DNA of 64,000 bases from Parapedobacter pyrenivorans (GTDB lineage Bacteria > Bacteroidota > Bacteroidia > Sphingobacteriales > Sphingobacteriaceae). Made by a program: the position numbers and the translations under genes. The notes under the pieces are model-generated. The model had not been told where the DNA came from. It did not search any database and saw nothing but the letters and a program-made list of their open reading frames with translations. The stretch is from positions 1,228,718 through 1,292,717 of the forward strand of contig NZ_BMER01000001.1 of assembly GCF_014636865.1 (NCBI RefSeq), in the 5' to 3' direction. Shown one piece after another: positions 23,191-47,633 of the stretch (positions are counted from its first letter, which is position 1; each line of letters opens with the position of its first letter).

Positions 23191-23208
23191 TCTTTCCAAA
23201 AATAAATA

Positions 23209-23217: not shown

Positions 23218-23231
23218 TTTTTAAAATTTTA

Positions 23232-23263: not shown

Positions 23264-23288
23264 TATACATATGTCGTACATATGTATA
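23264..23288. promoter_or_regulatory. Predicted GntR/FadR operator over the transcription start
   Basis: TATACATATG and CATATGTATA form a perfect 10-bp inverted repeat around TCGTA, and the centre contains TGTCGTACA (23272-23280). It covers the predicted transcription start, a typical position for repression. Confidence 0.7.
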
Positions 23289-23306: not shown

Positions 23307-26300
23307 ATGAAAAGAGAAAAACCAAAGTTTAAGTGTTTATGGGGTCTTATCCCTCTACTGCTGTTTTCCTTCGGTGTCGCTGCCCAAACCCAGGTGTCGG
23401 GCACAGTGAAGGATATGAGTGGCATCCCGCTTTCGGGTGTAAACGTCAGTGTTGCTGATAGCAACGGGGGGGTAAGCACGGATGATCAAGGCAATTTCAG
23501 CTTAACGATTTCCGATTTGCAGCAATCGCTGCGGTTTTCCTACATCGGTATGAAAGACAGGATCGTGCCGTTGGATGGCCGGCAGGTATTGGACGTTGTG
23601 CTCGAAGCGGACGCCCATAATTTGAGCGAAGTCGTCGTGATTGGTTACGGCCAGCAATCGCGGGCCACATTGACGACATCCATTTCAAAGGTAGACAACA
23701 AGGTGCTGGAAAATATCCCATTTGCCAATCCGGCATCGGCACTGCAGGGTACCGTGTCTGGGTTGCGCGTGCAAAGTACCTCGGGCCAGCCCGGTCAGGC
23801 GCCACGGGTGATCCTGCGGGGTAGCACATCGATAAATAATCCCAACGGCTCTGCTCCCCTTTACCTGATCGATGGGGTGATACGGAGCAACATGGACCAC
23901 CTCAATACCGATGACATCGAATCGCTGCAGGTGCTGAAAGATGCGGCGGCAACATCGATCTACGGCGCGAGGGGATCGAACGGCGTTATCCTGATCACAA
24001 CAAAATCCGGTAAGGCGGGTACCGCACGGATTTCATACGGCTATGACCTGACGACTTCCCAGCTGGGGCGACAGTATGACCTGGTTTCGGCAAAGGACTA
24101 CATCTATTTCCAGCGCCTGGGGATTGCAGCCCGCGGCCTTACGGATCCTACCCAGCTGGCTAAACTGACGCAAGCCTCTAGCGCGGGCACGGGTAACGAC
24201 CTCTCTAAAAATACGGCCTTTACCACGCAATACCTCTCTGCTGAAAATGAACATAAGCTGAATGAGGGCTGGCAAAGCATGCCGGATCCGATTGATCCCA
24301 CTAAAACGATCATCTTCAAAGAAACGGATTTCCAGGATGTATTGTTCAGGACGGGTATCTCACACAATCATTCCATCAATGCTTCCGGCGGGAATGATAA
24401 GGCAACGTTCAACGCGGGAGTCGGCTACTTGACAAATAATGGTATCGCCATAACAACAAACTACGAAAGGCTTTCGGTCAACCTCAATGGTGATCTGACC
24501 CTGCGAGACAACATCAAAGTGTTTGGAAGGGTGTTGTACGCTAACTCGGGCGACCGACAGGTGAGTAACCTATCGAATATCTTTTCGCGCTCAATTGCCA
24601 TTCCGGCTACCACCAAATACACCTACGAGGATGGTACGCTGGCCCCTGGCTTGAATGCTTCTATCGGGAATGTCGCCTATCACCTGAATACACAGGAAGC
24701 AAAAAATTCAGAATCGAACCTAACGGTGGCATTGGGTGGCCGATGGGAATTACTACCGGGCTTCGCATTCGAACCGCAGGTATCGCTATATACCATCAAT
24801 GCAGATAGCCGCTTTTTCCAGAAGGCGTATTACAACGGCCCGCTTCAGTTTGTCGATGCCCGTAATGCAACCGGTGGGGCGAGCAAGCAGGTGCAGCAGC
24901 AGGCGGATGCCTTGTTTACCTACGTGAAGTCTTTTCGAGAGCACAACCTGGATGTCACCGCCGGATTCTCGTATTTCGGGCGGTTGAACTCAGGGCTAAG
25001 CGCCAGCGGACAAGGAGCAGCGTCCGATCTGATTCCGACGTTGAACGCGTCGGGCATGCCTGTAGCTGTAAGTGGTACGGAATCTGAACAGGTAATCGCG
25101 GGTTTCCTATCGCGCGTCAACTACGACTATAAGCAGAAGTACCTCGTTTCATTGAATGCGCGATACGATGGCGCTTCAAACCTTGGCGATAACCACAAAT
25201 GGGGCTTTTTTCCCGGCGTCTCCGTAGGATGGAACATGCACCGTGAAGATTTCTGGGGCGAATCGCTTGCCAACCTGATGCAGCTCAAATTGCGTGCGAG
25301 CTACGGGGTGAATGGCAACATCAGCGGACTCGGCCCGTACCAAGCCCAGGGGCAGTACGCCGTTGGCCAGCGCTACGGCGGCTATGCTGCGATTCAAAAC
25401 ACAATATTGCCCAATATGGACCTGAAGTGGGAGCAGTCGAAAACCTTTAACGTGGGCGCCGACCTCGGATTGTGGAACAACCGCATCACCATGCTGGTGG
25501 ATGTATACCGCCGGGTTACCGACAACTTGCTTACCAGTATGAGCCTGCCGCAATCCACCGGATTTGCGAGCATCCTCACCAACCTGGGTAGCCTCGAAAA
25601 CCGTGGCGTCGAAATCGAGCTTTCGGCGGATCTGCTGCCAAGGGAATCTGCGGTGCAGTGGTTGTTGTCGTTCAATGCGTCCAAAGTGAAGAATAAGATA
25701 CTCAAATTGCCCAACAACGGCATCGAAAATAACCGGATCGGGGGGATATATGTGTGGGATCCGGCACGTGGCGACTATGCGTGGCTAGGGGGATTGCAAG
25801 AAGGAGGCAGGATCGGGGATCTGTTTGCTTACAAACAGCTGAGTATCTACGCGACGGATGAGGAGGCTGCCGGAGGGCCGACGGACATGATTATCCCGGG
25901 GGCAGACAAGACCAAATACGGTGGCAGCGTAAACTGGCTTGATGTAGACGGTAACGGGTTGATCGAAGCGACAGACCGCGTACATGTGGGGAATATCTAT
26001 CCGGTCTGGACGGGAGGGTTCTCCTCTTCGGTGAGTTATAAAAACCTCGCACTGAATGTGCGGATGGATTACACAACCGGTCATACCATCTATAATTACA
26101 CCCGTGCACAGGGTATCGGCCAGTTCGTCGGCGAGAATGGCTTGGTCTCCGATGTGCTGCGCTCTTGGCAGCAGCCTGGCGACCAGACCGACGTGCCTCG
26201 GGTTTATTGGGCCGACCAGCAAGCGCAGAACAACTTGTTCCGCGGAAACTCCAACTACTATGAACGCGGGGATTTCCTCGCCCTGCGGGAGCTTACCTTG

Positions 26301-26486
26301 AGCTACGCGCTGCCTTCACAATGGCTGCAACGGGTGAAAGTGAGCAGTTTGAGGCTCAACGTTACCGGCAATAATTTGTATTACTTCACGAAGTATGAGG
26401 GGCTAAACCCGGAAGAGGGCGGTGACGATAGGGGCCGTTACCCGGTACCGCGCAGTTTCATTTTCGGAATTAATGTAGGTTTTTAA
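23307..26486 (+). CDS. SusC/RagA-family TonB-linked outer-membrane protein (NanO-like by context)
   Basis: About 1059-residue TonB-dependent importer. ATG 23307 gives MKREKPKFKCLWG and a signal peptide ending GVAA; the frame extends upstream to 23208, but that part runs through the promoter and operator. Next come a carboxypeptidase-like domain (VSGTVKDMSGIPLSGVNV), a TonB plug (LYLIDGVIRSNMDHL, VLKDAAATSIYGARGSNG) and a beta barrel ending FIFGINVGF. First gene of the GntR-controlled operon. By analogy with Bacteroidota nan loci it would import sialylated or other ulosonic-acid glycans; specificity is inferred from neighbours only. Confidence 0.95.
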   Translation: MKREKPKFKCLWGLIPLLLFSFGVAAQTQVSGTVKDMSGIPLSGVNVSVADSNGGVSTDDQGNFSLTISDLQQSLRFSYIGMKDRIVPLDGRQVLDVVLEADAHNLSEVVVIGYGQQSRATLTTSISKVDNKVLENIPFANPASALQGTVSGLRVQSTSGQPGQAPRVILRGSTSINNPNGSAPLYLIDGVIRSNMDHLNTDDIESLQVLKDAAATSIYGARGSNGVILITTKSGKAGTARISYGYDLTTSQLGRQYDLVSAKDYIYFQRLGIAARGLTDPTQLAKLTQASSAGTGNDLSKNTAFTTQYLSAENEHKLNEGWQSMPDPIDPTKTIIFKETDFQDVLFRTGISHNHSINASGGNDKATFNAGVGYLTNNGIAITTNYERLSVNLNGDLTLRDNIKVFGRVLYANSGDRQVSNLSNIFSRSIAIPATTKYTYEDGTLAPGLNASIGNVAYHLNTQEAKNSESNLTVALGGRWELLPGFAFEPQVSLYTINADSRFFQKAYYNGPLQFVDARNATGGASKQVQQQADALFTYVKSFREHNLDVTAGFSYFGRLNSGLSASGQGAASDLIPTLNASGMPVAVSGTESEQVIAGFLSRVNYDYKQKYLVSLNARYDGASNLGDNHKWGFFPGVSVGWNMHREDFWGESLANLMQLKLRASYGVNGNISGLGPYQAQGQYAVGQRYGGYAAIQNTILPNMDLKWEQSKTFNVGADLGLWNNRITMLVDVYRRVTDNLLTSMSLPQSTGFASILTNLGSLENRGVEIELSADLLPRESAVQWLLSFNASKVKNKILKLPNNGIENNRIGGIYVWDPARGDYAWLGGLQEGGRIGDLFAYKQLSIYATDEEAAGGPTDMIIPGADKTKYGGSVNWLDVDGNGLIEATDRVHVGNIYPVWTGGFSSSVSYKNLALNVRMDYTTGHTIYNYTRAQGIGQFVGENGLVSDVLRSWQQPGDQTDVPRVYWADQQAQNNLFRGNSNYYERGDFLALRELTLSYALPSQWLQRVKVSSLRLNVTGNNLYYFTKYEGLNPEEGGDDRGRYPVPRSFIFGINVGF

Positions 26487-26503
26487 TCGAAAGAACGATC
26501 AAG

Positions 26504-27994
26504 ATGAAATTAATAGCTAAACAAAATATTATCAGGGGCTTCCTAGCGATGCTGGTCGCTACGATGATCCTATCGTCATGCCAGGATAACCTCTCATTGG
26601 ATCCCATCAGTGAGATTTCAAACTCTTCGTTCTGGAAGACGGAAGACGATGCGAGGGGCGGAATGTACGGGATGTACACACGGTTTCGCAGCGAGGCACA
26701 GACTAAACTCTTCCTTTGGGGCGAAGCGCGCAGTGATGTCATGGAGCGGAGTTTGGGCGGTACCAACAATTACGAGCGCTACTACCTGAATTCGCTGGAC
26801 CGGAATTTTGCCGGCCCGGATTGGATGGGCTTGTATACCGTGGTGCACGATGCGAATCTCCTGATCAAGAACGTACCGAACATTCCTTTCGCTGACGAAT
26901 CGGACAAACAAGCAATTTTAGCACAGGCGCATACCATGCGGGCATTCGTCTACTTTATCATGGCTCGTACCTGGGGCGGGGTGCCGCTGGTAACCGATCC
27001 CACGGAAGGTTATAGCCCGGATATGACGCAACGGGTAAAGGCTCCTGTATCGGAGATCTTCGGATTGATCAAGCAGGATATCGATCAGGCACTTGCCTAC
27101 TATCCCGACAATACGTTTCCCACCGGACGTTTCTTCTGGTCTAAACCGGCCGCGCTGACGCTCAAGGGGGACGTTTACCTCTGGACGGCCAAGCGCCAGG
27201 GTGGTGGCGACTCCGATGCAGAAATCGCAATGGCCGCATTGAACGAGGCTAGAAATGCAGATGTGACGTTGCTGGACGATTTCTCACAGGTGTCTGCCTA
27301 TGGCAACAAGGGAAATAAGGAAATCGTGATGGCGATCCGGTTCCAGGAGCTGGAGACGGGTAATATATCAGCGTATCAGGATATGTATATGTCCAGCGCA
27401 TTTCTATCGGCCGATATGGACGAAGCCACACGGGCAGCTATCGGCACGCTGGGCGGAAATCCGTATTGGCGTATTTCCGATGAGGTAAGGCCGCAATTTT
27501 CCGATGCTGACCAACGGAAGGCAGCGACCTACCTGGATATCTTTACGAATGGCGGCCAGGATCATTACGGTGCCGTGCAGCTAAAGTTTAAGGGTACGGT
27601 GATTGGTGGTGCACGCCAATTCATCGACGATTTTGTCATCTACCGGTATGCGGATATCTTGTTGTTGCTTGCAGAAGCGAAAAATGTGCTCGGCATGGAC
27701 CCCACTGAAGAAATGAATGCGGTCCGCGAACGTGCGTATGGTGAGCAGTTTGCGAGCCATGTGTTTGTAAACGCCGATCCCGAAGCGAATGACGAGGCGA
27801 TTCTACAAGAGCGGCTGTTTGAATTCGCATTGGAGGGTAAGCGTTGGTGGGACTTGGTGAGGTTTGGAAAAGCTTTCGAATTGGTGCCGTCACTGCGTGA
27901 CAGGGCCGATGAGCAGCACCTGCTACTTTTCCCGATTTCCGAAACAACCCTGAGCTTGGAGCCCAATGTGGAGCAGAATGACGGTTATAACTAA
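26504..27994 (+). CDS. SusD/RagB-family outer-membrane lipoprotein (NanU-like by context)
   Basis: 496 residues, lipobox MILSSC (Cys26), then a SusD fold: helical N-terminal half (SNSSFWKTEDDARGGMYGMYTRF), the AQAHTMRAFVYFIMARTWGGVPL segment typical of SusD, and a C-terminal FEFALEGKRWWDLVRFGKA block followed by a conserved LFPIS segment. It starts 17 bp after susC and is its surface partner. Ligand unknown; a sialic-acid-like sugar is inferred from the operon. Confidence 0.95.
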   Translation: MKLIAKQNIIRGFLAMLVATMILSSCQDNLSLDPISEISNSSFWKTEDDARGGMYGMYTRFRSEAQTKLFLWGEARSDVMERSLGGTNNYERYYLNSLDRNFAGPDWMGLYTVVHDANLLIKNVPNIPFADESDKQAILAQAHTMRAFVYFIMARTWGGVPLVTDPTEGYSPDMTQRVKAPVSEIFGLIKQDIDQALAYYPDNTFPTGRFFWSKPAALTLKGDVYLWTAKRQGGGDSDAEIAMAALNEARNADVTLLDDFSQVSAYGNKGNKEIVMAIRFQELETGNISAYQDMYMSSAFLSADMDEATRAAIGTLGGNPYWRISDEVRPQFSDADQRKAATYLDIFTNGGQDHYGAVQLKFKGTVIGGARQFIDDFVIYRYADILLLLAEAKNVLGMDPTEEMNAVRERAYGEQFASHVFVNADPEANDEAILQERLFEFALEGKRWWDLVRFGKAFELVPSLRDRADEQHLLLFPISETTLSLEPNVEQNDGYN

Positions 27995-28019
27995 TCAATA
28001 ATAAACACAGCGATAGGAA

Positions 28020-29177
28020 ATGAAGAAACTACGTAAAATGAGCAGCTTGGTCTTAGGTTTAGCCTGGCTGGTATTGGCAACGGTATCGTGCCAGCACAAT
28101 GCCGCCTCGGAGAATGGCGAAAACGTGACGGATAGCTTGGATAAGGAGCTCGTACTGAAACTGGCTCCCGGTGCTGATAATCCCCGAAACAGCGAGGGTG
28201 ATTTCATCACGTTGAAGGATGGACGGATCTTATTCGTATATAGCCGCTATACCGGGGAATCGACCAGCGACCATGCGCCAGCATACCTTGCCGGCCGCAT
28301 CTCTGCCGATAACGGAAAAACATGGACCGAAACGGATGAGCTCATCGTAGAGAAGGAGGGCGATATGAATGTGATGTCGGTCTCCTTGCTGCGCCTTCAA
28401 AATGGGAAGATCGCCTTGTTTTATTTGCGGAAAAATGCGGTGACCGACTGCATACCCATGATGCGGATTTCTGACGATGAAGCGAAAACATGGAGCGAAC
28501 CCATCGCCTGCATCACCGATAAGCAAGGGTATTTTGTACTGAATAACGACCGGGTCATCCAACTGGAAGATGGCCGGTTGATGATGGCCGTGGCGCTGCA
28601 TCAAACGCCGAATGGCGAATGGAAAAATGAGGCAACGTTATATGCGTATTATTCGGATGATGATGGGCAGACGTGGACATCGAGCGAGGCAGTTCCGAAT
28701 AATCAGGGTGTGATTACACAGGAGCCGGGGCTGATGGAATTGAAGGATGGTCGCATCATGATGTACATCCGGGCAAGTGGTGGAGCACAGCAGTTGTCAT
28801 ACTCGTCAGACAAGGGTAAAACCTGGAGTCCGATAGAAAAGAGCAATATCCCTTCGCCGCTTTCGCCGGCGACCATCAAGCGGATACCCGAAACCGGTGA
28901 TTTGCTGTTGGTCTGGAATAACAATGATGGCAGCAATCCAGCCATCAAGGACAAGCGGACACCGCTTACCATCGCCGTGTCCAAAGACGAAGGAAAGACG
29001 TGGTCGCACCAGCAGGATATCGAAACCGATCCGGACGGCTGGTATTGCTATATCGCCGTGCATTTTACCGATGACGGTCAGGTATTGTTGGGTTATTGCG
29101 CAGGCAGTATTGCCAAGAAAACCCACCTTTCCGTGACGGATATCACACGCTTGGGTTTGGACGAGGTTTATCGATGA
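28020..29177 (+). CDS. Sialidase-like beta-propeller lipoprotein 1
   Basis: 385 residues with lipobox ATVSC. Five Asp-box repeats (SADNGKTW, SDDEAKTW, SDDDGQTW, SSDKGKTW, SKDEGKTW) define the six-bladed sialidase superfamily fold. The canonical FRIP arginine motif of GH33 sialidases is not visible; the N-terminus instead has NPRNSEGDFITLKDGRI. It may cleave a related ulosonic acid or be a non-canonical glycosidase. The stop overlaps the next start by four bases. It shares family, but modest identity, with the propellers at 30796, 31997 and 36263. Confidence 0.85.
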   Translation: MKKLRKMSSLVLGLAWLVLATVSCQHNAASENGENVTDSLDKELVLKLAPGADNPRNSEGDFITLKDGRILFVYSRYTGESTSDHAPAYLAGRISADNGKTWTETDELIVEKEGDMNVMSVSLLRLQNGKIALFYLRKNAVTDCIPMMRISDDEAKTWSEPIACITDKQGYFVLNNDRVIQLEDGRLMMAVALHQTPNGEWKNEATLYAYYSDDDGQTWTSSEAVPNNQGVITQEPGLMELKDGRIMMYIRASGGAQQLSYSSDKGKTWSPIEKSNIPSPLSPATIKRIPETGDLLLVWNNNDGSNPAIKDKRTPLTIAVSKDEGKTWSHQQDIETDPDGWYCYIAVHFTDDGQVLLGYCAGSIAKKTHLSVTDITRLGLDEVYR

Positions 29178-30076
29178 ACGGATATTCAACGACTATGAAC
29201 GAAAAAGGGTTAGCAGGTGTCGTTATCGCCTTACCGACACCACTCCATCCGGATGAAACCGTGGATGTGGAATCGTTGTGCCGGCTTATGGACCATACCA
29301 TCAATGGCGATGCCGATGCGATCATGATCGGTGGGACGATGGGCGAAGGCGTGGCGTTGCTCGATAGCCAGAAGCGGATATTGGTTGAAACAGCAGCAGC
29401 CCATAATGCGGGGCGGATTACGTTGCTGGCAACCGTATCCGAAACGTCGACGAAACGGAGTATTGATTTTGTCCGATCGATCCGGCATTGCCCGGTTGAT
29501 TATTGGGTATGCACCAGCCCCTACTACAATAAGTTCCCTGATCCACAGAGTGTACTGACCCATATTGCGGAAATCAGAGGGAGCAGCGACCGGCCGCTGG
29601 TATTTTACAACGCACCGCTCGCCACTGGTAACCCCGTGGATGTGGATACCTTGGATCGCATATTGAACATGGAGGGTATCGCGGGTGTGAAAGATTCCAG
29701 CACAAACTTCGGCCTATTCATGGAAATGCTGCGCAGGTATCCTAAGGGAGACAGGCCGGCGTCCATCATGCAGGGGGATGAATCGGTGTTTGACGTAAGC
29801 TTGCTTCTGGGGGCTGATGGGGTAGTATCCGGCGGCGGCGTCGTATTCGTCGAGCTGCTGAAGGAGCTGTATGCTACGGCTTGTTCCAACAACCCGGCCC
29901 AATCGATGGAATTGCAACGCCGCTTGTCGCAAGAATTGCGTGCGTTGCTGGGGCCGCGGGCAGGAAGGGATTGGGTGGCTAAGATCAAGCAACGACTGGT
30001 CGATATGGATGTGATTGGTGCATCTCATGTGTCCGCGCCGTTTTTGACCAATATAGACACGGTGGGGGATGAATGA
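29174..30076 (+). CDS. DHDPS/N-acetylneuraminate-lyase-family aldolase 1
   Basis: 300-residue class I aldolase of the DapA/NanA family, cytosolic. Motifs: GGTMGEG for substrate carboxylate binding (canonical GTTGE or GSTGE), SPYYNK and FYNAP with the catalytic Tyr, and AGVKDSS with the Schiff-base Lys. In place of the NAL GSTYN segment it has SGGGVV, so it looks more like KDG/DHDPS-type enzymes than true NAL. ATG 29174 overlaps the preceding stop (ATGA); ATG 29195 is an alternative. It probably cleaves a 2-keto-3-deoxy acid to pyruvate plus an aldehyde. Confidence 0.9.
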   Translation: MNGYSTTMNEKGLAGVVIALPTPLHPDETVDVESLCRLMDHTINGDADAIMIGGTMGEGVALLDSQKRILVETAAAHNAGRITLLATVSETSTKRSIDFVRSIRHCPVDYWVCTSPYYNKFPDPQSVLTHIAEIRGSSDRPLVFYNAPLATGNPVDVDTLDRILNMEGIAGVKDSSTNFGLFMEMLRRYPKGDRPASIMQGDESVFDVSLLLGADGVVSGGGVVFVELLKELYATACSNNPAQSMELQRRLSQELRALLGPRAGRDWVAKIKQRLVDMDVIGASHVSAPFLTNIDTVGDE

Positions 30077-30803
30077 TCGCTGCCGCATCTTCCGCTTTGC
30101 CAGCATGGTTTTGCTTTTGGCGTTTGGTTGCCTGAAGAGCCAAGGTGCTGTGGTGGAAGGCGATACATTGGTAATCGTAGCGTTCGGTAATTCGACAACG
30201 GCACCACGCGCCGGTGTCGAAGCGGTGTATCCCGAGCGGTTGCATCGCATACTGGTAGATCGTGGCGTACCGAACCGGATCGTCAATGCTGGGCTTGGTG
30301 GCAGCCATACCGGATCTATTACGGACAATGCCCGCCATCAGGTTGCTCATGGCCGCGATCGCTTTAAGGAAGCGGTATTGGCGCATCAGCCCAAATGGGT
30401 CATCATCTGGTTCGGGATCAACGATGCCTGGGTAGATGACGAGACAACAGGGCAACCCCGGATTCCCCTTGCGGATTATAAGCAAAACTTGATTTTTTTC
30501 ATCCAATCGATTCGGCAAGCGGGCGGGGATGTGGTACTGCTCACACCCAACCCGTTGGGTGCACGGTATGAACCGTGGCGGCTTAACCGCTTGCAGCGGT
30601 ATCGCAAAGCGACAATACGGATTGCCCGGACGTACCACACGCAGCTTGTAGATGTCTGGGGGTTGTGTACGGATTACGTACGGCAGCATCGGGCAACGAT
30701 GGATAACCTTCTGCTGGATGGCATGCATCCGAATGATAGCATGCACAAACTCACCGCCGAAGCGGTGGCAGATCGGCTACTGACCAAAATAGATAATGAC
30801 TAA
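30069..30803 (+). CDS. SGNH/GDSL-family esterase 1
   Basis: 244 residues with an N-terminal hydrophobic signal (SMVLLLAFGCLKSQGA). SGNH blocks: FGNSTT (nucleophile Ser in a GNS variant of GDS), GLGGSHT (Gly), FGINDA (Asn) and DGMHPN (Asp and His). Likely an exported O-acetylesterase that deacetylates the sugar before cleavage, by analogy with NanS-type sialate O-acetylesterases. It overlaps the aldolase stop by eight bases and the next start by eight. Confidence 0.88.
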   Translation: MNDRCRIFRFASMVLLLAFGCLKSQGAVVEGDTLVIVAFGNSTTAPRAGVEAVYPERLHRILVDRGVPNRIVNAGLGGSHTGSITDNARHQVAHGRDRFKEAVLAHQPKWVIIWFGINDAWVDDETTGQPRIPLADYKQNLIFFIQSIRQAGGDVVLLTPNPLGARYEPWRLNRLQRYRKATIRIARTYHTQLVDVWGLCTDYVRQHRATMDNLLLDGMHPNDSMHKLTAEAVADRLLTKIDND

Positions 30804-31989: not shown

Positions 31990-31996
31990 GACACGC

Positions 31997-33721: not shown

Positions 33722-33727
33722 GATCGT

Positions 33728-34537: not shown

Positions 34538-34538
34538 G

Positions 34539-36261: not shown

Positions 36262-36262
36262 A

Positions 36263-39505: not shown

Positions 39506-39517
39506 TCGAACAGGGAT

Positions 39518-39901: not shown

Positions 39902-39903
39902 GC

Positions 39904-41370
39904 ATGAGTTTCCGGGTAGCCTTGATAGGGATTTATCACGAGTCGAATACGTTTATCGACACCTTGACTTATGCGGCTGATTTCCGGAATAGCCATTGGC
40001 TGTGGGGAGCCGACATCCGGAACGAATATCGGGATGCTCACCATGAAATCGGGGGAATGCTTGAGGTGATGGATCGGGAAGGGGTCGAGGTGATTCCCGT
40101 TGTATTTGCCGAGGCAACGCCAGGGGGTGTGGTACACCATGAGGCGTATCGGGCGCTATTGGATGAGATACTGGAGGGACTGCAGCGTGCAATGCCGATA
40201 GACGGTTGTCTGGTCGTGCCGCATGGAGCGGGAGTTAGCGAACAGGAACGCGACATGGATGGGCATTGGCTGGAAGCGGTGCGCAGGATGGTGGGACCTG
40301 AAGTACCCGTAGTAGGTACGCTGGACCTTCATGCCAATGTGAGCGAGCGGATGGTCGATGTGACCGACGGACTGGTTGTGTATAAACGGAATCCCCACCT
40401 CGACCAGCGCGAGCGAGGCAAAGAAGCTGCGGAGCTGATGATCCGTTGCCTGCGGGAAAGAACGAAGCTTTTTCAGAAACTGGTGCAACTGCCGCTGGCA
40501 ATCAGTATCGAACAGCAGGGCACGGATGTGCAGCCCTGCAAAGGGATATACGAATATGCCCGACAGCTCGAGAAAGAAGATGGCGTGTGCTCCGTGAGCG
40601 TGGCGCTGGGATTTCCCTATGCCGATGTGCCGGAGATGGGTAGTTCGATCATCGTGGTGACCGAGGGCGATGCCGCGCTGGCGGATCGCATTGCGCAACA
40701 GCTGGAAGCGTATATCCTCGAGCGAAAGTCTGGCTTTGTAGGCGACAAGATCGGCGTGGCGGAAGCCGTGGCGAAACTGCCCCACTTGCCGAAGTCCGTG
40801 CTGTTGCTGGATATGGGCGACAACATTGGCGGGGGTACACCCGGTAATGGGCTGGCGCTCGTGAAGGCGTTGGAAACCCGTGGGCTGCGGTATTTCAGTT
40901 ATCAACACGATGCCGCCGCGGTGAGGGATGCAGCCGCGGTGCCGGTTGGCGCTTCTTTCGATCTTTGCCTTTCCGGCTTTGACGAAGAAGGACGAAAACC
41001 CTGGAAACAACGAGTGACACTAAAAGACCGGGTGGCTGGAAAATTTACGGAACAGACCCCAAGACATGGCGGGCAGGTCCGGTTTGACATGGGCGAAACC
41101 TTGATCATTGGTACGGAAGGCGGCGGTACCCTAATGGTGAGTACGTTGCGTATCCCACCCTTCAGCCTCCGGCAGCTGACGGCTTTTGGCCTCGATCCGG
41201 AAGCGTTCGATGTGTTGGTGGCCAAAGGAGTCAACGCGCCGCTGGCTGCGTACGGGCCGGTTTGCCGGAGCGTCCTGCAAGTGGATACGCCCGGCCCAAG
41301 CCGGGCGGACATGAGCAAACTGCCTTATCGATTCCGGCGGAAACCGCTTTTCCCTTTTGAATCTATATAG
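39904..41370 (+). CDS. M81/MlrC-family metallohydrolase
   Basis: 488 residues, cytosolic. Metal-binding and active-site motifs of the MlrC/M81 family: YHESNTF at the N-terminus, PHGAG, TLDLHANV and MGDNIGGGTPGNG. The prototype opens linearised microcystin peptides, but most members occur in amino-acid or amide catabolic operons. Here it may hydrolyse an amide or peptide bond on the substrate. It starts 2 bp after ridA. Confidence 0.9.
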   Translation: MSFRVALIGIYHESNTFIDTLTYAADFRNSHWLWGADIRNEYRDAHHEIGGMLEVMDREGVEVIPVVFAEATPGGVVHHEAYRALLDEILEGLQRAMPIDGCLVVPHGAGVSEQERDMDGHWLEAVRRMVGPEVPVVGTLDLHANVSERMVDVTDGLVVYKRNPHLDQRERGKEAAELMIRCLRERTKLFQKLVQLPLAISIEQQGTDVQPCKGIYEYARQLEKEDGVCSVSVALGFPYADVPEMGSSIIVVTEGDAALADRIAQQLEAYILERKSGFVGDKIGVAEAVAKLPHLPKSVLLLDMGDNIGGGTPGNGLALVKALETRGLRYFSYQHDAAAVRDAAAVPVGASFDLCLSGFDEEGRKPWKQRVTLKDRVAGKFTEQTPRHGGQVRFDMGETLIIGTEGGGTLMVSTLRIPPFSLRQLTAFGLDPEAFDVLVAKGVNAPLAAYGPVCRSVLQVDTPGPSRADMSKLPYRFRRKPLFPFESI

Positions 41371-41371
41371 C

Positions 41372-42214
41372 ATGGCAATTGATTTCACGAAGCAGATAAG
41401 CGTTCGCCGGGAAGTCCTGTTTGAAGGCGCATTTTACACCGAGGGACCGGTCTGTGACGACAAGGGTGGTGTTTATTTTACGGACCTGACGGGTGGAGCT
41501 ATTTGGTATTGGCACGTAGAAACGGGCGCATCGCGCTGTGTGGAGGGAGGATGGCCCAATGGGCAAGCCCGAGACGCGAAGGGCAATTGGCTGGTATGCG
41601 ACAGCAAAACCCGGCAATTGAGGCGCTATGATGCCAAAGGGAATTTTACGGGCAATGCCATCGACGGGCATTGTGCCGGCAAATCGGTGACAACACCGAA
41701 CGACGTCATTACAGACAGCCGGGGCGGTTTTTATTTTACAGATTCGGTGCGCCATCGGGGCTATGTGTTTTACCAATCGAACACGGGTGAAGAACGTATC
41801 GTGGCGGAAGGATTGGACTATCCGAACGGCCTTGTACTTTCCGCTGACGAGCAACATCTTTTCGTGGCAGAGAGTTATGCCAACCGGTTGATCCGCATCC
41901 GGTTGCACGGGCCGGGTGATGCAAAAGGCTGGGACGCATTTTGTGAGTTACCACACCACACGTCTGGGCTTCCGCAGGCAAATCTGCCCGATGGCCTGGC
42001 AATTGACAGATCGGGACAGGTGTGGGTAGCCCACTACGGGATGGGTGCCCTTCAGGTGGTGGACAATCAAGGGAATTTACGCGCATCCATTCCAACGGGG
42101 ATTCCGTTGACCAGCAACGTCTGCTTGTTGGGGCCGGGCTGTGCCATCGTTACCGGTGGTGATGCCGAACCGGGCCCGGGAAAGGTTGTGAAATTAACGC
42201 TTGAGAACAAATGA
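41372..42214 (+). CDS. SMP-30/gluconolactonase-family lactonase
   Basis: 280-residue six-bladed propeller. Characteristic metal-site segments: FYTEGPV (Glu), TPNDVITDSRGGFYFTDS (Asn), YPNGLVLSADEQ (Asn) and NLPDGLAID (Asp). Probably hydrolyses a sugar lactone generated by one of the operon dehydrogenases. ATG 41372 is 1 bp after the M81 stop; a slightly longer frame is not needed. Cytosolic, no signal visible. Confidence 0.9.
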   Translation: MAIDFTKQISVRREVLFEGAFYTEGPVCDDKGGVYFTDLTGGAIWYWHVETGASRCVEGGWPNGQARDAKGNWLVCDSKTRQLRRYDAKGNFTGNAIDGHCAGKSVTTPNDVITDSRGGFYFTDSVRHRGYVFYQSNTGEERIVAEGLDYPNGLVLSADEQHLFVAESYANRLIRIRLHGPGDAKGWDAFCELPHHTSGLPQANLPDGLAIDRSGQVWVAHYGMGALQVVDNQGNLRASIPTGIPLTSNVCLLGPGCAIVTGGDAEPGPGKVVKLTLENK

Positions 42215-43314
42215 ACACGACGAATAAACTAATTTCGATGATCGGATTGATCGTAACGACGATGATAACGTATGAGACGAGGGCGCAGGAACCCATTGTG
42301 TGGTCAGAATTGCCACCATTGCCCGATACCGCAGGGCGTGCGGGCATGTTTGCCGGGGTAAGCCAGGGGCGTCTGTTCTCCATGGGAGGGGCTAATTTTC
42401 CGGATGGATATCCGTGGGAAGGAGGGCGGAAGAAATGGCACAACGATATCTTCATGCTGGAAGCCGGTGCCAACCAATGGCGGCAGTTAGCCGACGTATT
42501 GCCCGGTGGATTGGCCTATGGCGTGTCGGTATCTTACAAGGATTGTATTTTTCTGGTGGGCGGGAGCACGGCTACCTTACATAGTGACGAAACGTGGTTA
42601 TTGCGATGGGGAAATGGCATACTGGACATGGAAGCAGGACCGCGGCTTCCCCATCCACTGGCGAATATGGCTGGAACAAGGGTGGGTTCGTTGCTGATTG
42701 TGGTGGGTGGAATGGACAAGCCGGATGGGGCACCGCTTCTTTGCTGTTATGGTCTGGATCTGGATGCGCCGGATAACGGGTGGTTTGCGTTGCCGGAGTG
42801 GCCGGGTGAAGGGCGGATTTTTCCGGTTACGGGAAGCTTCGCGGGTAAATTTTACCTCTTCAGCGGCGAGAACAAGAAACGGAATGCCGTAGGGTTGGAC
42901 CAACGGCATATCTTCCAGGATGCATTTTGTTTTGCACCTGCAAAGACCGGTAACCGCTGGAGCGGCGAGTGGCATCGGCTGAGTGATCTGCCGGTGGGCA
43001 TGTCGGCAGGAGCAAACCCCGCGCCACTGGTAGCCGGCCGGGCATTCCTCTTCTGGGGAGGCGTGGATCGGCTAACGGCTCTGCATTCCGTTCCGCAGGC
43101 ACATCCCGGCATTGGCGGAGAGTTGCTTTGGTATAATCCGGAAACAGATCGCTGGGGGTATGACGAAGGGATGGAAAGGGAGCCCGGCCGGGTAACACTT
43201 CCGACGGTCAACTGGAATGGCCGGACCTATTACATCAGTGGTGAAGTTAAACCGGGTATCCGCACGAATCGGATAACCGGAGTGACAGCAGAAAAAAAAC
43301 AGCAAAAGCCATGA
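42211..43314 (+). CDS. NanM-like Kelch-repeat sialate epimerase (cyclically permuted mutarotase family)
   Basis: 367 residues with a signal peptide ending ETRAQ and Kelch repeats: SMGGANFPDG, FLVGGSTATLHSD, IVVGGMDKPDG, FLFWGGV. The opening LPPLPDTAGRAGMFAGVS is typical of N-acetylneuraminate epimerase NanM, which interconverts sialic-acid anomers in the periplasm. It supports a free ulosonic acid as pathway intermediate. ATGA overlaps with both neighbours indicate coupling. Confidence 0.9.
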   Translation: MNTTNKLISMIGLIVTTMITYETRAQEPIVWSELPPLPDTAGRAGMFAGVSQGRLFSMGGANFPDGYPWEGGRKKWHNDIFMLEAGANQWRQLADVLPGGLAYGVSVSYKDCIFLVGGSTATLHSDETWLLRWGNGILDMEAGPRLPHPLANMAGTRVGSLLIVVGGMDKPDGAPLLCCYGLDLDAPDNGWFALPEWPGEGRIFPVTGSFAGKFYLFSGENKKRNAVGLDQRHIFQDAFCFAPAKTGNRWSGEWHRLSDLPVGMSAGANPAPLVAGRAFLFWGGVDRLTALHSVPQAHPGIGGELLWYNPETDRWGYDEGMEREPGRVTLPTVNWNGRTYYISGEVKPGIRTNRITGVTAEKKQQKP

Positions 43315-44225
43315 AGGTATCACCACTTACATTGGGGACGGTCCAGTTGGGTTTAAACTACGGGATAGCCAACGACGGCGGCAAGCCGGATAGGGCGGTG
43401 GGCGAAGCGATACTGAAAGCGGCGGTGCAATCGGGGATCACCACGTGGGATACTTCCCGGTACTATGGCAATTCGGAAGAGGTAATCGGTAATTTCTTGG
43501 CCGCCAACAGCCAAGACGCGGCAGAATTGCTGGTCGTCAGTAAATTTAAATGGAGCGCTGCGGCGATGGTCGATTTGCAGAAAGCCCGGCAAGAAGCAAA
43601 AGATAACGTACGGCAAAGCCTGAAAGCACTGGGTATCCCGGTGCTACCTATCTTGCTTTACCACCAGGGTAAGGATGAGCCCATTGAGCAGTTGATCCGG
43701 TTTCTGCCGATGGTGGTAACGGAGCTTCAGGAAGAGGGGTTGATCCGCAAAGGAGGGATATCGCTGTATTATCCAGACGAGGCAATGGCCATCGTGGATG
43801 AACGTTCGTTGCAAGCGGTACAGGTGCCGGTCAATATTTTTGACCAGCGCGTGGTCCGCAACGGCGGGTTGGCACGGATGAAGGAGCGGGGAAGTTTGGT
43901 ATTTGCCCGCAGTGTCTTTTTGCAGGGACTTTTCTTTTTGGACGAGGGCAGCGTTCCGCCGCACCTTCAAGCAGCCATACCCTTTTTGCAACGGCTGCGG
44001 CAGCTTGCTAAAAAGGCTCAGGTGGATGTTGCTCAACTTGCGTTTTCGTATGTAAGGGATTTGCCAGGTGTAACCAGCGTGGTGTTCGGTGCGGAACATC
44101 CGGATCAGGTAAAACAAAATGCAGTGTTGCAACAGGTACCCGCGCTCCCCTTGGAAATAAGGGAGGAGGCGGCAGACACCTTTCAGCAACTTCCCCTGAA
44201 GGTAATTACCCCGGGGATGTGGTAA
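43311..44225 (+). CDS. Aldo/keto reductase
   Basis: 304-residue TIM-barrel NAD(P)H-dependent reductase. The catalytic tetrad is present: Asp and Tyr in TTWDTSRYYGNSE, Lys in VVSKFKW and His in LLYHQG. Similar to L-galactose dehydrogenase-like AKRs. Probably oxidises or reduces the aldehyde or sugar released by the aldolases. It overlaps the nanM-like gene by four bases. Confidence 0.92.
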   Translation: MKVSPLTLGTVQLGLNYGIANDGGKPDRAVGEAILKAAVQSGITTWDTSRYYGNSEEVIGNFLAANSQDAAELLVVSKFKWSAAAMVDLQKARQEAKDNVRQSLKALGIPVLPILLYHQGKDEPIEQLIRFLPMVVTELQEEGLIRKGGISLYYPDEAMAIVDERSLQAVQVPVNIFDQRVVRNGGLARMKERGSLVFARSVFLQGLFFLDEGSVPPHLQAAIPFLQRLRQLAKKAQVDVAQLAFSYVRDLPGVTSVVFGAEHPDQVKQNAVLQQVPALPLEIREEAADTFQQLPLKVITPGMW

Positions 44226-44245
44226 TTTTTAACGAGTTTGATGAT

Positions 44246-45043
44246 ATGAATGTTCGAGATAGTTTTGATTTAACAGACCGCGTATGCGTGGTAACCGGCG
44301 GTGCGGGATTGTATGGTAAACCCATCGCGTGGGCGCTGGCCGAGGCGGGGGCAAGCGTGGTGATCGCTTCGCGCAATGCGGAGCACTGTCAGGCGGCCGC
44401 GGCCGAACTGGTTGCTGAAGGGTACCAGGCGGTGGGTATGCGACTGGATTTGGGCGAAGAAACGTCCATTGTGCGGCTTGTGGATGATGTTGTAAAACGG
44501 TTTGGACAGCTGGATGTGCTGGTGAACAACGCGGTTTCCCGCGAAGGCTTCAAAACGCTCGACCAGATGGAAAAGTCAGAATGGGAGGCCTCGCAACGGA
44601 TCAATTCAACCGGATTGATGTTGATGACTAAATACGCCGTCCAACACATGGTCACCAACGGCAAAGGGGTGATCATCAATATCGGCTCCATACAAGGGGT
44701 GGTCGGGCCCAATTTTCCGGTCTACGGCGATACGGGCATGACCAGCCCGGTAAACTATACATATGACAAATCGGCGATGGTTGGCTTTACCAAATGGCTC
44801 GCCAATTACTACGGGCAGTATGGGATCCGTGCCAATTGCATCAGTCCCGGTGGATACGGGCCGGGCGTAGAAGAACGATACGGAGACAATGAATTTGTGT
44901 CCAACTACAAGCGGCTAACGCCGCTGGGCAGGTTTGCCGATGAATCAGACATCAAGGGACCGATTGTATTTTTGGCATCTGAGGCATCGCGTTACGTAAC
45001 CGGGCACAATTTGCTCGTAGACGGCGGCTGGACCAGTTGGTAA
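44246..45043 (+). CDS. SDR-family oxidoreductase 2
   Basis: 265 residues. Cofactor loop TGGAGLYGKP (a variant of TGxxxGxG), NNAVS, Ser in NIGSIQG and YxxxK in YTYDKSAM. ATG 44246 is preferred to a GTG at 44219 that overlaps the AKR stop. A second sugar dehydrogenase in the operon, with its own insert around YGDTGMTSPVNYTYD. Confidence 0.92.
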   Translation: MNVRDSFDLTDRVCVVTGGAGLYGKPIAWALAEAGASVVIASRNAEHCQAAAAELVAEGYQAVGMRLDLGEETSIVRLVDDVVKRFGQLDVLVNNAVSREGFKTLDQMEKSEWEASQRINSTGLMLMTKYAVQHMVTNGKGVIINIGSIQGVVGPNFPVYGDTGMTSPVNYTYDKSAMVGFTKWLANYYGQYGIRANCISPGGYGPGVEERYGDNEFVSNYKRLTPLGRFADESDIKGPIVFLASEASRYVTGHNLLVDGGWTSW

Positions 45044-45060
45044 TTTAAAGCAAAAAAGAG

Positions 45061-46311
45061 ATGATCATGGAAGAAACTCCCCGTACCCCTATTAAAGTGC
45101 CCCGAGCGTGGCTGACCGTAGGCCTGCTCGTTGTTATAGCCCTGTTGAATTACATCGATAGAACCATGATCACCACGATGCGCGGTTCGATCGTAGATGC
45201 GATACCGATGACAGACGCCCAGTTTGGGCTATTGACGGCGGTTTTTCTCTGGATTTATGGGTTGTTGAGTCCCATGGCGGGGTTTATGGCCGACCGGCTC
45301 GGCAAAAGCCGGGTGATATTGGGCAGCCTTTTCGTGTGGTCGTTGGTGACGTGGCTAACGGCGTACGCCACCACCTTCGAGCAGCTGCTGGTTACCCGCG
45401 CGCTGATGGGCATCAGCGAGGCGTGCTATATCCCGGCAGCGCTGGCCCTGATCATGGATTACCACCGCGGCCCGACGCGATCCCTGGCTACCGGTATCCA
45501 CATGGCCGGCATCATGGCCGGCCAGAGTTTGGGCTTTGTAGGCGGCTGGATCGCCGAAAACCATGCATGGAATACAGCTTTCCTGCTGTTTGGTATATTT
45601 GGAGTGGGCTATTCGCTTGCACTGATTTTCCTGCTGAAGGAAGCTCCCAAACAAGACGAAATACTTGATCGTGAACCGGGAGAAAAAATTGGGTTTGGAA
45701 AGGGGCTAGCCTATCTATTTAAACAACGATCATTTATCCTGTTGGTGATATTCTTTGCCCTAGTGAGCATACTCACGTGGTTGGTCGTGGGCTGGTTGCC
45801 TACCTATTTCACCGAGCAGTTTGGCCTTTCACAAACCGTGGCCGGACTGTATTCAACGGCCTATATCTTTACATCGGCCATCTTTGGCGTGCTATTGGGC
45901 GGTTTTCTGGCTGATCGCTGGAGCAAAATCAATCCAAGGGGTAGAATCTGGGTGCCTGCCATCGGGCTATGTATCGCTGCCCCGGCAATTTTCATGGCCA
46001 GTTACACCACCGTTTTGCCGATTGCCATCGGCTGTTTCATCGCTTACACTGTCACCAAATCATTCAGTGATGCGAATACCATGCCTATACTGAGTATGAT
46101 CATCGATTCACGCTACCGCGCTACTGGCTACGGTATCCTAAATTGCTGCGGCACCATCGTTGGCGGAATCGCGCTTTATTATGGCGGTTTTTTGAGGGAC
46201 GCCAATATCGGACTTACTACAGTTTATCAATTTGCAGCGTTATTTATTGTCCTGGCCGCCGTGGCACTCTTCCTCATTAAGCCCAAAAAGAAATTTATCG
46301 AACCGCAATAA
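45061..46311 (+). CDS. MFS transporter (anion:cation symporter-like)
   Basis: 416 residues, 12 predicted TM helices. YIDRTMI in TM1 and ADRLGKSR (motif A) are typical of the ACS/sugar-acid branch of MFS, which also includes sialic-acid NanT-like and hexuronate carriers. Likely inner-membrane importer of the acidic sugar freed in the periplasm. A second start at 45067 is possible. Second-to-last gene of the operon. Confidence 0.9.
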   Translation: MIMEETPRTPIKVPRAWLTVGLLVVIALLNYIDRTMITTMRGSIVDAIPMTDAQFGLLTAVFLWIYGLLSPMAGFMADRLGKSRVILGSLFVWSLVTWLTAYATTFEQLLVTRALMGISEACYIPAALALIMDYHRGPTRSLATGIHMAGIMAGQSLGFVGGWIAENHAWNTAFLLFGIFGVGYSLALIFLLKEAPKQDEILDREPGEKIGFGKGLAYLFKQRSFILLVIFFALVSILTWLVVGWLPTYFTEQFGLSQTVAGLYSTAYIFTSAIFGVLLGGFLADRWSKINPRGRIWVPAIGLCIAAPAIFMASYTTVLPIAIGCFIAYTVTKSFSDANTMPILSMIIDSRYRATGYGILNCCGTIVGGIALYYGGFLRDANIGLTTVYQFAALFIVLAAVALFLIKPKKKFIEPQ

Positions 46312-46331
46312 TCAAATCTTTCATTCAAATC

Positions 46332-47633
46332 ATGAATAGCAACTACGAAAAATCAGCACAATTGCTGGAGCGCGCCAAAAAAGTACTAGCATCAGGCGTC
46401 TCTTCCGAATTCCGCAAATATAACCATCCCCACGCCCTATTTTATACGCACGGAAAAGGTACACGTATCTACGATGTGGATGGCAACGAATACCTGGATT
46501 TTACCCTGAGCCAGGGGCCGCTTATCCTGGGGCACTCCCATCCGGAGGTACTGCAGGCGGTACATGACTATTCCGCCCAGGGTCAGCTGTATGCCGGTCA
46601 GCACCTGCAGGAAATCGAATTGGCAGAGAAGCTGAATGAATTGATTCCATCGGCTGAACTCATGCGATTCTGTTTGGACGGTTCGGAAGCCGTGCAAACC
46701 GCATTTCGGGTAGCGCGCGCAAAGACCGGTCGACAGAAATTTCTGCGTTTCGAAGGCCATTATCACGGCTGGCTGGACAACGTAGCCTATGGCATCTCCG
46801 CACCATCGGCCGAGGCGCTTGGCGATCGTGAAGATCCGAATGTATTTCCATGGACGGCTGGGCTACCCGATTCCTCCCGGGCGGATTTCATTGTTCTCCC
46901 GTGGAATGATTTGGATTTGGTGAGCCGGACGCTTGAAGAACGGCACGAGGAGTTGGCCGCAATCATCACGGAGCCCATCATGTGCAACAATGGGTGTATC
47001 GTACCAAAAGAGGGCTTTTTGGCCGGATTACGGGACCTTTGTAACCGCTACGGTATTGCACTGATATTTGATGAGGTGATCACCGGTTTCCGGGTCGGAT
47101 TAGGTGGAGCGCAACGCCATTTCGGGATTACACCCGACCTGTCGATCTTTGCCAAAGCCATGGGAAGCGGCTATCCCATCAGCGCAGTGGTCGGAAAGCG
47201 GGATTGGATGGAACTGATTGAACAAGGAAAGGTGATCCATGCCGGCACGATGAATTCCGGTAATCCTACGGTAGCCGCGGCCCTTGCAACGATACGCGTA
47301 TTAGAACGCGAAATGCCCTATGACCGGATGTATCGATTAGGCCAGCAGCTGATGGCCGGCCTCCGGGAAGCCGCTTCGGAAGCCGGTCAGAATCTAGTGG
47401 TTCAAGGCCTTGGGCCGATGTTTGTGACGTATTTCGGAAATGAGGGCGAATTGACGGACTACCGGGACACCTTCCATGCAGACAAAGGTAAACTGAACAG
47501 GTTTATCGCCGGCCTGCACGACGAAGGAATCCGGGTCATCGGCCGCGGCCTTTGGTACATCAGTGCGGCACATACCGAAGCGGATATTGCGGATGCAATT
47601 GCAGCTTCAGCCCGCGTGTTGGCGAGGTTATAA
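46332..47633 (+). CDS. Class-III aminotransferase, glutamate-1-semialdehyde aminomutase-like
   Basis: 433-residue fold-type I PLP enzyme. PLP lysine in FAKAMGSGYP, IFDEVITGFR with the PLP-pyridine Asp, and GHYHGW are typical of the GSA-aminomutase/aspartate aminotransferase III family. The first residues SSEFRKYNHPHALF resemble GSAM. It is separated from haem-biosynthesis genes and closes the catabolic operon, so it more likely transaminates an amino sugar or amino acid derived from the substrate. Confidence 0.9.
   Translation: MNSNYEKSAQLLERAKKVLASGVSSEFRKYNHPHALFYTHGKGTRIYDVDGNEYLDFTLSQGPLILGHSHPEVLQAVHDYSAQGQLYAGQHLQEIELAEKLNELIPSAELMRFCLDGSEAVQTAFRVARAKTGRQKFLRFEGHYHGWLDNVAYGISAPSAEALGDREDPNVFPWTAGLPDSSRADFIVLPWNDLDLVSRTLEERHEELAAIITEPIMCNNGCIVPKEGFLAGLRDLCNRYGIALIFDEVITGFRVGLGGAQRHFGITPDLSIFAKAMGSGYPISAVVGKRDWMELIEQGKVIHAGTMNSGNPTVAAALATIRVLEREMPYDRMYRLGQQLMAGLREAASEAGQNLVVQGLGPMFVTYFGNEGELTDYRDTFHADKGKLNRFIAGLHDEGIRVIGRGLWYISAAHTEADIADAIAASARVLARL

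Follow-up and report, generated by a model that had tools for sequence, protein, structure and literature searches.

A 21-gene operon of the Bacteroidota species Parapedobacter pyrenivorans may serve the use of nonulosonates, most likely N-acylneuraminates, through an oxidative, non-phosphorylated downstream route of its own, a reading to which we give about an even chance. The operon lies in a 64-kb stretch of the 5.9-Mb genome (64,000 nucleotides of contig NZ_BMER01000001.1, hereafter the window), at positions 23307–47633 of the + strand, and runs from a gene for a SusC-type receptor to one for a class-III aminotransferase that ends at 47633. To our knowledge, bacterial sialate catabolism relies on an epimerase and a kinase that lead N-acetylmannosamine (ManNAc) to glucosamine-6-phosphate. 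The nan loci of Bacteroidota comprise a lyase, a NanE/AGE epimerase, a kinase, SusCD, a sialidase and an esterase. The operon resembles such loci (PMC2693436) in its FadR/GntR regulator, SusCD, sialidase, SGNH esterases, N-acylneuraminate lyase (NAL)-family lyase, NanM and MFS carrier. It differs from them in that no epimerase or kinase was found in it, and in a constant core formed by the short-chain dehydrogenase/reductase SDR1, the lactonase SGL, the deacylase AstE, the pyridoxal phosphate (PLP) enzyme PALP, RidA and the metallohydrolase M81.

All 21 genes that a first-pass annotation had joined into one tight operon are present on the same strand. Neighbouring open reading frames (ORFs) are spaced by −125 to +25 bp, so gaps do not exceed 25 bp, and likelier internal starts in AstE, Sia4 and Sia3L, read from the sequence, erase most of the long overlaps. 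The annotation had also named families typical of nan loci, and a Pfam scan that took in the regulator and every operon gene except SusC and SusD, which were identified by eye (20 of 22 genes in all), agrees, with GntR/FCD, BNR_2, two SGNH hydrolases, two aldolases of the DHDPS/NAL family, NanM/kelch, MFS, two SDRs, an AKR, an SGL lactonase, PALP, RidA, AstE/AspA, M81/MlrC and a class-III aminotransferase. Neither an epimerase nor a kinase appeared among the genes scanned, and a KdgK-type kinase was likewise absent from these 20 genes. A search for a terminator or RNA fold after 47633 gave nothing above shuffled sequences.

The sialidase-like lipoprotein Sia1 points to an ulosonic acid as the substrate. 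Its catalytic set is complete (R56, D84, E235, R251, R313 and Y344), with residue roles (arginine triad, Asp, Glu and Tyr) assigned as in known sialidases, in which the arginine triad binds the C1 carboxylate of ulosonic acids. These residues are kept in at least 93% of sequences across 65 aligned proteins and are invariant in a 43-sequence alignment that drew on 42 of the 54 relatives listed, and the spacings from the Glu to the Arg (16) and from the Arg to the Ser (8) are the same as in an RIP-type sialidase of the same genome. A structure model of Sia1 (pLDDT 90.8) matches the Micromonospora viridifaciens sialidase over 315 residues (Z 36.6, root-mean-square deviation 2.4). Its first 28 structural matches comprise 27 sialidases and one designed metalloprotein, and a Foldseek list likewise holds sialidases, with a Dyadobacter protein of unknown function on top. 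As modelled, Sia1 is a GH33 sialidase fold with a full catalytic set. Three proteins of the operon score above the Pfam BNR_2 cut-off, and Sia4 falls below it (24.0 vs 31.4 bits). Sia2 and Sia3L keep the Glu/Arg pair, the third Arg and the Tyr; the first Arg and the Asp were not placed in them. The predicted structure of Sia4 was discarded for its poor quality (pLDDT 64.6, from an alignment of only 4 sequences). The NanM-like protein exceeds its Pfam threshold (NANM, 115.6 bits against a cut-off of 45) and stays below those of the NCBIfam subfamily models.

The aldolase NAL2 supports the same assignment. Its best match in the PDB is Escherichia coli NAL (1nal, E 1.9e-33), and S47, T48, Y136, K163, T165, D190, E191 and S/T207 are each kept in at least 36 of 38 sequences. 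In NAL, ManNAc is contacted by Asp191, Glu192 and Ser208, the second of which also binds the O8/O9 diol of N-acetylneuraminic acid (Neu5Ac) (PMC3014015). NAL2 keeps D190, E191 and S/T207 at the equivalent positions, including the residue that binds the C8/C9 diol, which makes 9-deoxy sugars less likely as substrates. Together with the fold and residues of Sia1, this residue set supports the view of the first-pass annotation that the operon handles an ulosonic acid. Its further proposal of a modified nonulosonate was not established over ordinary Neu5Ac or N-glycolylneuraminic acid (Neu5Gc).

The remaining enzymes would provide a chain of oxidation, lactone opening, deacylation and deamination. 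AstE, PALP, RidA, SGL, AKR and both SDRs keep the catalytic residues expected for their families: S140/Y153/K157 in SDR1, E29, N115, N157 and D212 in SGL, the tetrad D47, Y52, K78 and H118 in AKR, R104 and E118 in RidA, and the PLP lysine K58 in PALP. The nearest NCBIfam model for SDR1 is PRK07231, a glucose 1-dehydrogenase subfamily (196.3 of the 215 bits needed). A PDB search with SDR1 at E 1e-40 gave no match; a looser one gave sugar and other SDRs, with no ManNAc dehydrogenase named among the 60 of 134 matches listed, and none was named among 60 of 81 matches listed for SDR2. AstE matches Pfam AstE_AspA_cat, and its nearest NCBIfam model is DoeB, an N(2)-acetyl-L-2,4-diaminobutanoate deacetylase (67.7 of the 402.7 bits needed); DoeB-type enzymes account for two of its six PDB matches. 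The GxDE arrangement is missing from the second DHDPS-family aldolase, NAL1, which stands closer to DHDPS-type enzymes.

This set of genes recurs as a unit. Seven of 151 genomes of the family, from 4 genera, carry the PALP gene, which served as the search anchor, and the six besides that of the window have a long run of the same neighbours around it. A scan of one genome per species gave at least 80 loci from Bacteroidota, Verrucomicrobiota and Planctomycetota (80 of 573 confirmed relatives). Conservation was counted in the 36 of these 80 loci that are Bacteroidota records of at least 13 kb, with presence called at ≥35% identity (≥30% for NanM and AKR) and within flanks of 10 kb, so that genes further off are scored absent; related species make these counts non-independent. 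Six short Bacteroidota contigs were set aside (L040, L045, L064, L089, L093 and L098; no partner gene was seen on L040), and the 38 loci of other groups were counted apart at E 1e-6 with no identity cut-off, many of their matches lying at 25–45%. SDR1, RidA and SGL occur in all 36 Bacteroidota loci, as does PALP by construction; AstE and M81 occur in 34 each, NAL2 and the NanM-like protein in 33 each, Sia1 in 30, the MFS carrier in 25, SusD in 21, SGNH2 in 18 and Sia2 in 17. SusC relatives were seen in 15 loci, many of which end before SusC. SDR2 and AKR share an identical set of 18 loci. A Gfo/Idh gene stands in six loci, none of them among these 18, and 12 loci have neither, a mutual exclusion that suggests replacement, five of the six being from one genus, Cyclobacterium. 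Relatives of the regulator adjoin the cluster in several genera (12 of the 36 loci). The first-pass annotation had named conserved synteny as a check, and the same gene order does recur in other genera, so that the arrangement is not due to chance.

Beyond Bacteroidota, 28 of the 38 loci from Verrucomicrobiota and Planctomycetota have an AstE relative beside PALP, and 25 of these also have an SDR; of the latter, 13 hold a DHDPS-family gene and 11 a NanM- or sialidase-like gene. M81 accompanies AstE in 9 of the 38. In Opitutae-type loci the AstE relative lies on the other strand (26–34% identity). The cluster is one conserved unit in Bacteroidota, with reduced versions in the other two phyla. 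As a separate observation, the sialidase genes of 4 of the 36 loci are interspersed with members of a protein family, some 300 residues long and bearing a twin-arginine-type leader (L035:5151-6077, L036:1362-2249, L037:2978-3847 and L039:1905-2801), the L037 member having no Pfam match.

These distributions bear on the possibility, which we consider unlikely, that no nonulosonate is involved: the sialidase-fold enzymes would act on another acidic sugar, both aldolases would be 2-keto-3-deoxy-acid aldolases, and the amide and PLP genes would degrade a linked N-acyl amino acid or aldonate. AstE, SDR1, PALP and M81 do occur with no sialidase- or NAL-like gene within the flanks covered in several loci of the other phyla (among them L078, L083, L099 and L104), so the module can serve other inputs, and Sia1 alone among the sialidase-like proteins has the complete GH33 set placed. 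Against this stand the arginine triad and structural matches of Sia1, the proximity of NAL2 to NAL in the PDB, the presence of the NanM-like protein in nearly all loci and the NanR-like regulator in a third of them.

Taking N-acylneuraminate as the substrate, we infer the following order of steps. Outside the cytoplasm, the SGNH esterases would strip O-acyl groups and Sia1, with Sia2 to Sia4, would free the sugar from its glycan; SusCD would import it across the outer membrane, NanM would mutarotate it and the MFS protein would carry it inward. In the cytoplasm, NAL2 would cleave the sugar to pyruvate and N-acyl-mannosamine, SDR1 would oxidize C1 of ManNAc to give a lactone, SGL would open this to N-acetylmannosaminate, AstE would take off the acetyl group, and PALP together with RidA would bring about the loss of water and ammonia to yield 2-keto-3-deoxygluconate (KDG). 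KDG might then be split to pyruvate and glyceraldehyde by NAL1, or in other genomes by an RraA-like or HpcH/HpaI aldolase. A second pyruvate aldolase is present in 22 of the 36 loci (RraA-like in 20, HpcH/HpaI in 2 and NAL1-like in 1), and its recurrence from three families fits a 2-keto-3-deoxy acid intermediate. Leader segments divide the genes as the scheme requires, judging by a simple hydropathy scan rather than a trained predictor: hydrophobic leaders were found in SusC, SusD, Sia1 to Sia4, SGNH1 and NanM (with a lipobox in Sia1 and SusD) and an RR-type leader in SGNH2, and the same scan gave no leader-like segment in AstE, SDR1, PALP, both aldolases, RidA, M81, SGL, AKR, SDR2 or AT3.

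Stereochemistry may explain why such odd enzyme families stand together. In a Fischer projection with the carboxylate on top, the aldonate of D-mannosamine has its nitrogen on the left, as in an L-amino acid, and that of D-glucosamine has it on the right, as in a D-amino acid. Once C1 is a carboxylate, C2 of mannosamine is therefore L-configured, and relatives of L-amino-acid-type enzymes, as AstE and PALP appear to be, fit the proposed intermediates.

The closest precedent that we found has the opposite configuration. Published work on the ong cluster of Pseudoalteromonas prydzensis describes the deacetylation of the 1-acid of N-acetylglucosamine (GlcNAc-1-acid) by a D-aminoacylase relative and its deamination to KDG by a D-amino-acid-deaminase relative (PMC9537276), the latter being a D-serine-deaminase relative, and a RidA protein that is needed for growth and whose role the authors left open (PMC9537276, PMC12017989). 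The pathway proposed here would share with ong the deacetylation of an N-acetyl aldonate, a PLP-dependent deamination to KDG and the lack of phosphorylation, and both encode RidA alongside the deacetylase and the deaminase. They differ in that the ong sugar acid comes from the action of a lytic polysaccharide monooxygenase (LPMO) and has a D-configured C2, whereas an aldolase, a dehydrogenase and a lactonase are proposed upstream here; and in that ong uses a D-aminoacylase and a fold-III D-deaminase, in place of the AstE/DoeB-like and fold-II threonine-synthase-like proteins of the operon. The non-phosphorylated oxidative route suggested in the first-pass annotation gains support from this D-configured precedent and from the constancy of SDR1, SGL, AstE, PALP and RidA.

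The first oxidative step also has a counterpart. ManNAc dehydrogenase, EC 1.1.1.233, is an SDR from a Flavobacterium. SDR1 is likewise an SDR and would match it in the proposed step. The formation of the lactone from ManNAc by an NAD enzyme is a known activity (PMC4016182). The DoeB/EutB pair of ectoine degradation offers another likeness, as it sets an enzyme of the N2-acetyl-L-amino-acid deacetylase family beside one with a threonine-dehydratase fold; here the matches fall far under the cut-offs, and no other ectoine gene was noticed.

A number of observations, collected in this and the next three paragraphs, weigh against a dedicated oxidative route for N-acylneuraminate. The NCBIfam models for NanR (PRK03837, 82.7 bits against a cut-off of 260), NAL (157.4 of 281 bits) and NanM all score the proteins of this operon under their own cut-offs, so no canonical nan gene can be assigned by name alone. 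PALP is nearest to threonine synthase and not to a known aldonate ammonia-lyase, and it stands without partners in at least 8 of the 38 loci outside Bacteroidota, several of them from Planctomycetota. A second aldolase was not seen in 14 of the 36 loci within the 10-kb flanks.

Other such points come from the genome itself, which holds two further nan-type loci (C1:2717212-2734217, retrieved as L127 and L029, and C2 at about 143500-154900, retrieved as L032 and L128). Both have a FadR-type regulator, SusCD, a NAL-like lyase and NanM-like genes, and the C1 locus has two RIP-type sialidases, two NanM-like genes and a second DHDPS-family gene. AGE-family genes lie at three places, the best scoring 254 bits and situated about 0.3 Mb off beside a ROK-type regulator and an MFS gene, and there are six ROK-family matches. 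With these loci and epimerases, ordinary Neu5Ac use seems already covered. The absence of an epimerase and kinase stated in the first-pass annotation applies to the operon; AGE-family epimerase genes exist elsewhere in the genome. Among carriers of the cluster, genome-wide counts were made for 30 of the 36 (without L033, L036, L047, L055, L062 and L081), and all 30 have an AGE-family match (PF07221) above the curated cut-off, at 219 bits or more in 14 and at 170 bits or less in the remaining 16; PF07221 also holds other epimerases. One carrier (G064) has an AGE gene together with a NAL2 relative immediately upstream of the cluster, and the position of the AGE gene speaks for a ManNAc-type intermediate and against strict independence from an epimerase.

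The operon might accordingly belong to ordinary Neu5Ac use, with cleavage by NAL2, ManNAc passing to an AGE epimerase and to a kinase, of the ROK or another family, both encoded elsewhere, and the PLP, amide and redox genes processing another component of the same glycan. The AGE and ROK genes just described favour this account, to which we assign a small probability. Against it, more than half of the carriers have no AGE match above 170 bits, and SDR1, SGL and RidA recur across the loci more constantly than do the sialidase and the aldolase. In favour of the oxidative route, no convincing NanE match was found in 31 genomes (the 30 carriers and that of the window; three matches reach the cut-off of the model, each part-length in an ORF of about 500 residues). 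The best AGE gene adjoins its own ROK-type regulator, and no operator site with at most one mismatch (see below) lies in the 20 kb around it (C1:1555500-1575400); of the co-regulated epimerase and kinase that the first-pass annotation had named as a counter-finding, AGE- and ROK-family genes exist, but this sign of shared control is lacking near the best candidate.

The composition of the operon raises a different doubt. M81 is part of the core and present in 30 of 30 carrier genomes, though a sugar with one amide needs one deacylase; AT3 is in 7 of the 36 loci yet in 28 of the 30 genomes, and a sugar with one nitrogen gives it no task. M81, AT3, AKR and SDR2 have no firm step in the proposed route, and M81 and AT3 could be either shared general enzymes or signs of a substrate with a second amide. 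Where E. coli NAL carries a Glu, NAL2 has Q50 (36 of 38 sequences), and it is without the IPAL(S/T)G stretch that both lyases of the other nan loci possess; it may thus act on a sugar other than Neu5Ac. In Sia1, RNSEG stands in place of the RIP seen in the sialidases of those loci. M81, the aminotransferase and the differences in the NAL2 pocket argue for a modified sugar.

Such a sugar could be a di-N-acylated bacterial nonulosonate, for example legionaminic acid, an alternative that we regard as improbable. NAL2 would then give a 2,4-diacetamido-trideoxy-hexose; at C2, the amide and the amine would be removed by AstE and PALP, and at C4 by M81 and AT3, respectively; SDR2/AKR would deal with the resulting ketone or aldehyde, and the second aldolase would act last. 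Such a scheme would find a use for both amide hydrolases, both PLP enzymes, both SDRs and both aldolases, and it would agree with the near-universal presence of M81 and AT3 in carriers, with the two other nan-type loci of the genome and with the unusual NAL2 pocket. A fully dedicated route of this legionaminate type, in which AstE/M81 and PALP/AT3 remove two nitrogens and two pyruvates are released with no phosphorylation, seems to us slightly less probable still. Legionaminate has no O9, whereas NAL2 keeps the residues that in NAL contact ManNAc and bind the C8/C9 diol; no second aldolase was seen in 14 of the 36 loci; and AT3 is absent from 2 of the 30 genomes and often sits in another cluster.

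In the family, AT3 occurs in 9 of 101 genomes, 4 of which also carry PALP. As proof of a two-nitrogen substrate AT3 was set aside as weak, for 12 of 21 AT3 neighbourhoods are a different recurrent cluster; M81 as proof of a second amidase was set aside for a like reason, being also found in another cluster. Both may therefore serve another pathway. The other AT3 cluster (L155-L164, L167 and L168) contains two 3HCDH-type dehydrogenases, an M19 dipeptidase and an alkaline-ceramidase-like protein; 10 of these 12 neighbourhoods also have RidA, and 7 have a D-serine-dehydratase-like PLP enzyme. The other M81 neighbourhood (L154, L171, L172 and L174) holds, by eye, genes for exported RidA-like, gamma-glutamyltransferase-like and SelA-like proteins, and amidohydrolase-like genes in three of the four.

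Upstream of the operon lies a divergent GntR-type regulator, and the intergenic region contains a palindrome, ATATGTnnnACATAT, which we propose as the putative target sequence of this regulator. The pattern WTRTGTNNNACAWAT, picked after looking at the sequences, has a single match in the window (at 23269-23283), against 0.05 expected; a shorter pattern, WTGTNNNACANA, is not enriched there (5 vs 3.5 expected). The exact form ATATGTNNNACATAT occurs once in the whole genome, and palindromes of this type are present in 12 of 16 regulator upstream regions, that of the window included. Genome-wide, sites with at most one mismatch number 19, against 17 for a reversed control, so single sites carry little meaning. 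Two such sites, C1:2718000 and C2:154091, lie in the other nan-type loci, each in the gap that separates the regulator from its neighbouring gene. Both operator copies of the window precede 23307, which makes this the likelier start of SusC.

Table 1. Genes and operator sites of the proposed nonulosonate utilization locus, in window coordinates; functions given as candidates are predictions.
Feature	Position	Strand	Basis or remark
NanR/FadR-type GntR regulator	22415..23140	-	divergent; GntR + FCD domains
Second operator copy, AAATGTACGACATAT on the - strand	23206..23220	.	one mismatch; 5/6 palindromic
Palindromic operator ATATGTcgtACATAT	23269..23283	.	between regulator and SusC
SusC-type TonB-dependent receptor	23307..26486	+	named by eye; ORF from 23208
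SusD-type lipoprotein	26504..27994	+	named by eye; lipobox
Sia1, GH33-fold exo-sialidase-like lipoprotein	28020..29177	+	Pfam, alignment, model
NAL1, second DHDPS-family aldolase, candidate KDG aldolase	29192..30076	+	DHDPS/KDG-like
SGNH1, SGNH hydrolase with hydrophobic leader, candidate O-acylesterase	30069..30803	+	
Sia2, BNR_2 sialidase-like protein with hydrophobic leader	30796..31989	+	Pfam
Sia3L, BNR_2 protein with hydrophobic leader and C-terminal extension	31997..33721	+	ORF from 31946; putative start
SGNH2, SGNH hydrolase with RR-type leader	33728..34537	+	Pfam
AstE/AspA-type deacylase, candidate N-acetylmannosaminate deacetylase	34521..35474	+	ORF from 34413; putative start
SDR1, candidate ManNAc 1-dehydrogenase	35452..36261	+	NCBIfam PRK07231 nearest
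Sia4, divergent BNR-like protein with hydrophobic leader	36263..37510	+	ORF from 36194; putative start
PALP, threonine-synthase-like fold-II PLP enzyme, candidate mannosaminate ammonia-lyase	37507..38622	+	
NAL2, N-acylneuraminate-lyase-like aldolase	38612..39505	+	PDB match to E. coli NAL
RidA-family protein, candidate imine/enamine deaminase	39518..39901	+	family profiles, residues
M81/MlrC-family metallohydrolase	39904..41370	+	Pfam
SGL, SMP-30/gluconolactonase-type lactonase	41357..42214	+	Pfam, residues
NanM-like kelch mutarotase with hydrophobic leader	42211..43314	+	Pfam NANM above cut-off
AKR	43311..44225	+	Pfam, catalytic tetrad
SDR2, gluconate-5-dehydrogenase/KduD-like	44219..45043	+	NCBIfam, PDB
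MFS carrier, weakly nearest D-galactonate transporters	45061..46311	+	136 of 395 bits needed
AT3, class-III (GSA-aminomutase-like) PLP aminotransferase	46332..47633	+	Pfam, NCBIfam

Around the operon, three further features were noted. Just upstream of the regulator, a GH127-type beta-L-arabinofuranosidase gene is apparently split into two overlapping frames on the + strand (20933-21337 and 21262-22389), of which only the second matches Pfam GH127 and the first has no match, suggesting a frameshift or sequencing error. A calcineurin-like phosphoesterase frame seems to stop early, with a likely continuation in another frame (19703-20518 and 20200-20637, + strand). At 52035-63941 on the - strand, two sulfatase genes and another SusC/SusD locus were recognized by eye, together with MR/MLE-type enolase-superfamily, MFS, Nramp-like, epimerase-like and distant DHDPS-like genes; this locus possibly serves a different sugar acid.

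Among the titles and starts of abstracts listed for open-licence PMC articles, with the lists in part cut short, we found no description of a ManNAc-acid pathway, of legionaminate or pseudaminate catabolism or of a non-phosphorylated sialate route, which is no proof of their absence in print. If the oxidative route proposed here is correct, it would be a conserved alternative that gives sialic acid carbon a further outlet in many Bacteroidota genera and, in reduced form, in two more phyla, and it would provide a physiological setting for the known ManNAc dehydrogenase activity. It would also suggest that the configuration of C2 foretells the families from which the deacylase and the ammonia-lyase are drawn, of L type here and of D type in the chitin-acid pathway. 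Genes for AstE-, PALP-, M81- and NanM-like proteins that are now annotated by fold only thereby receive testable substrates. We know of no earlier catabolic route for di-N-acylated bacterial nonulosonates; should the substrate prove to be one of these, the operon would open up the catabolism of bacterial surface sugars for which the papers listed in one search on this point describe no route.

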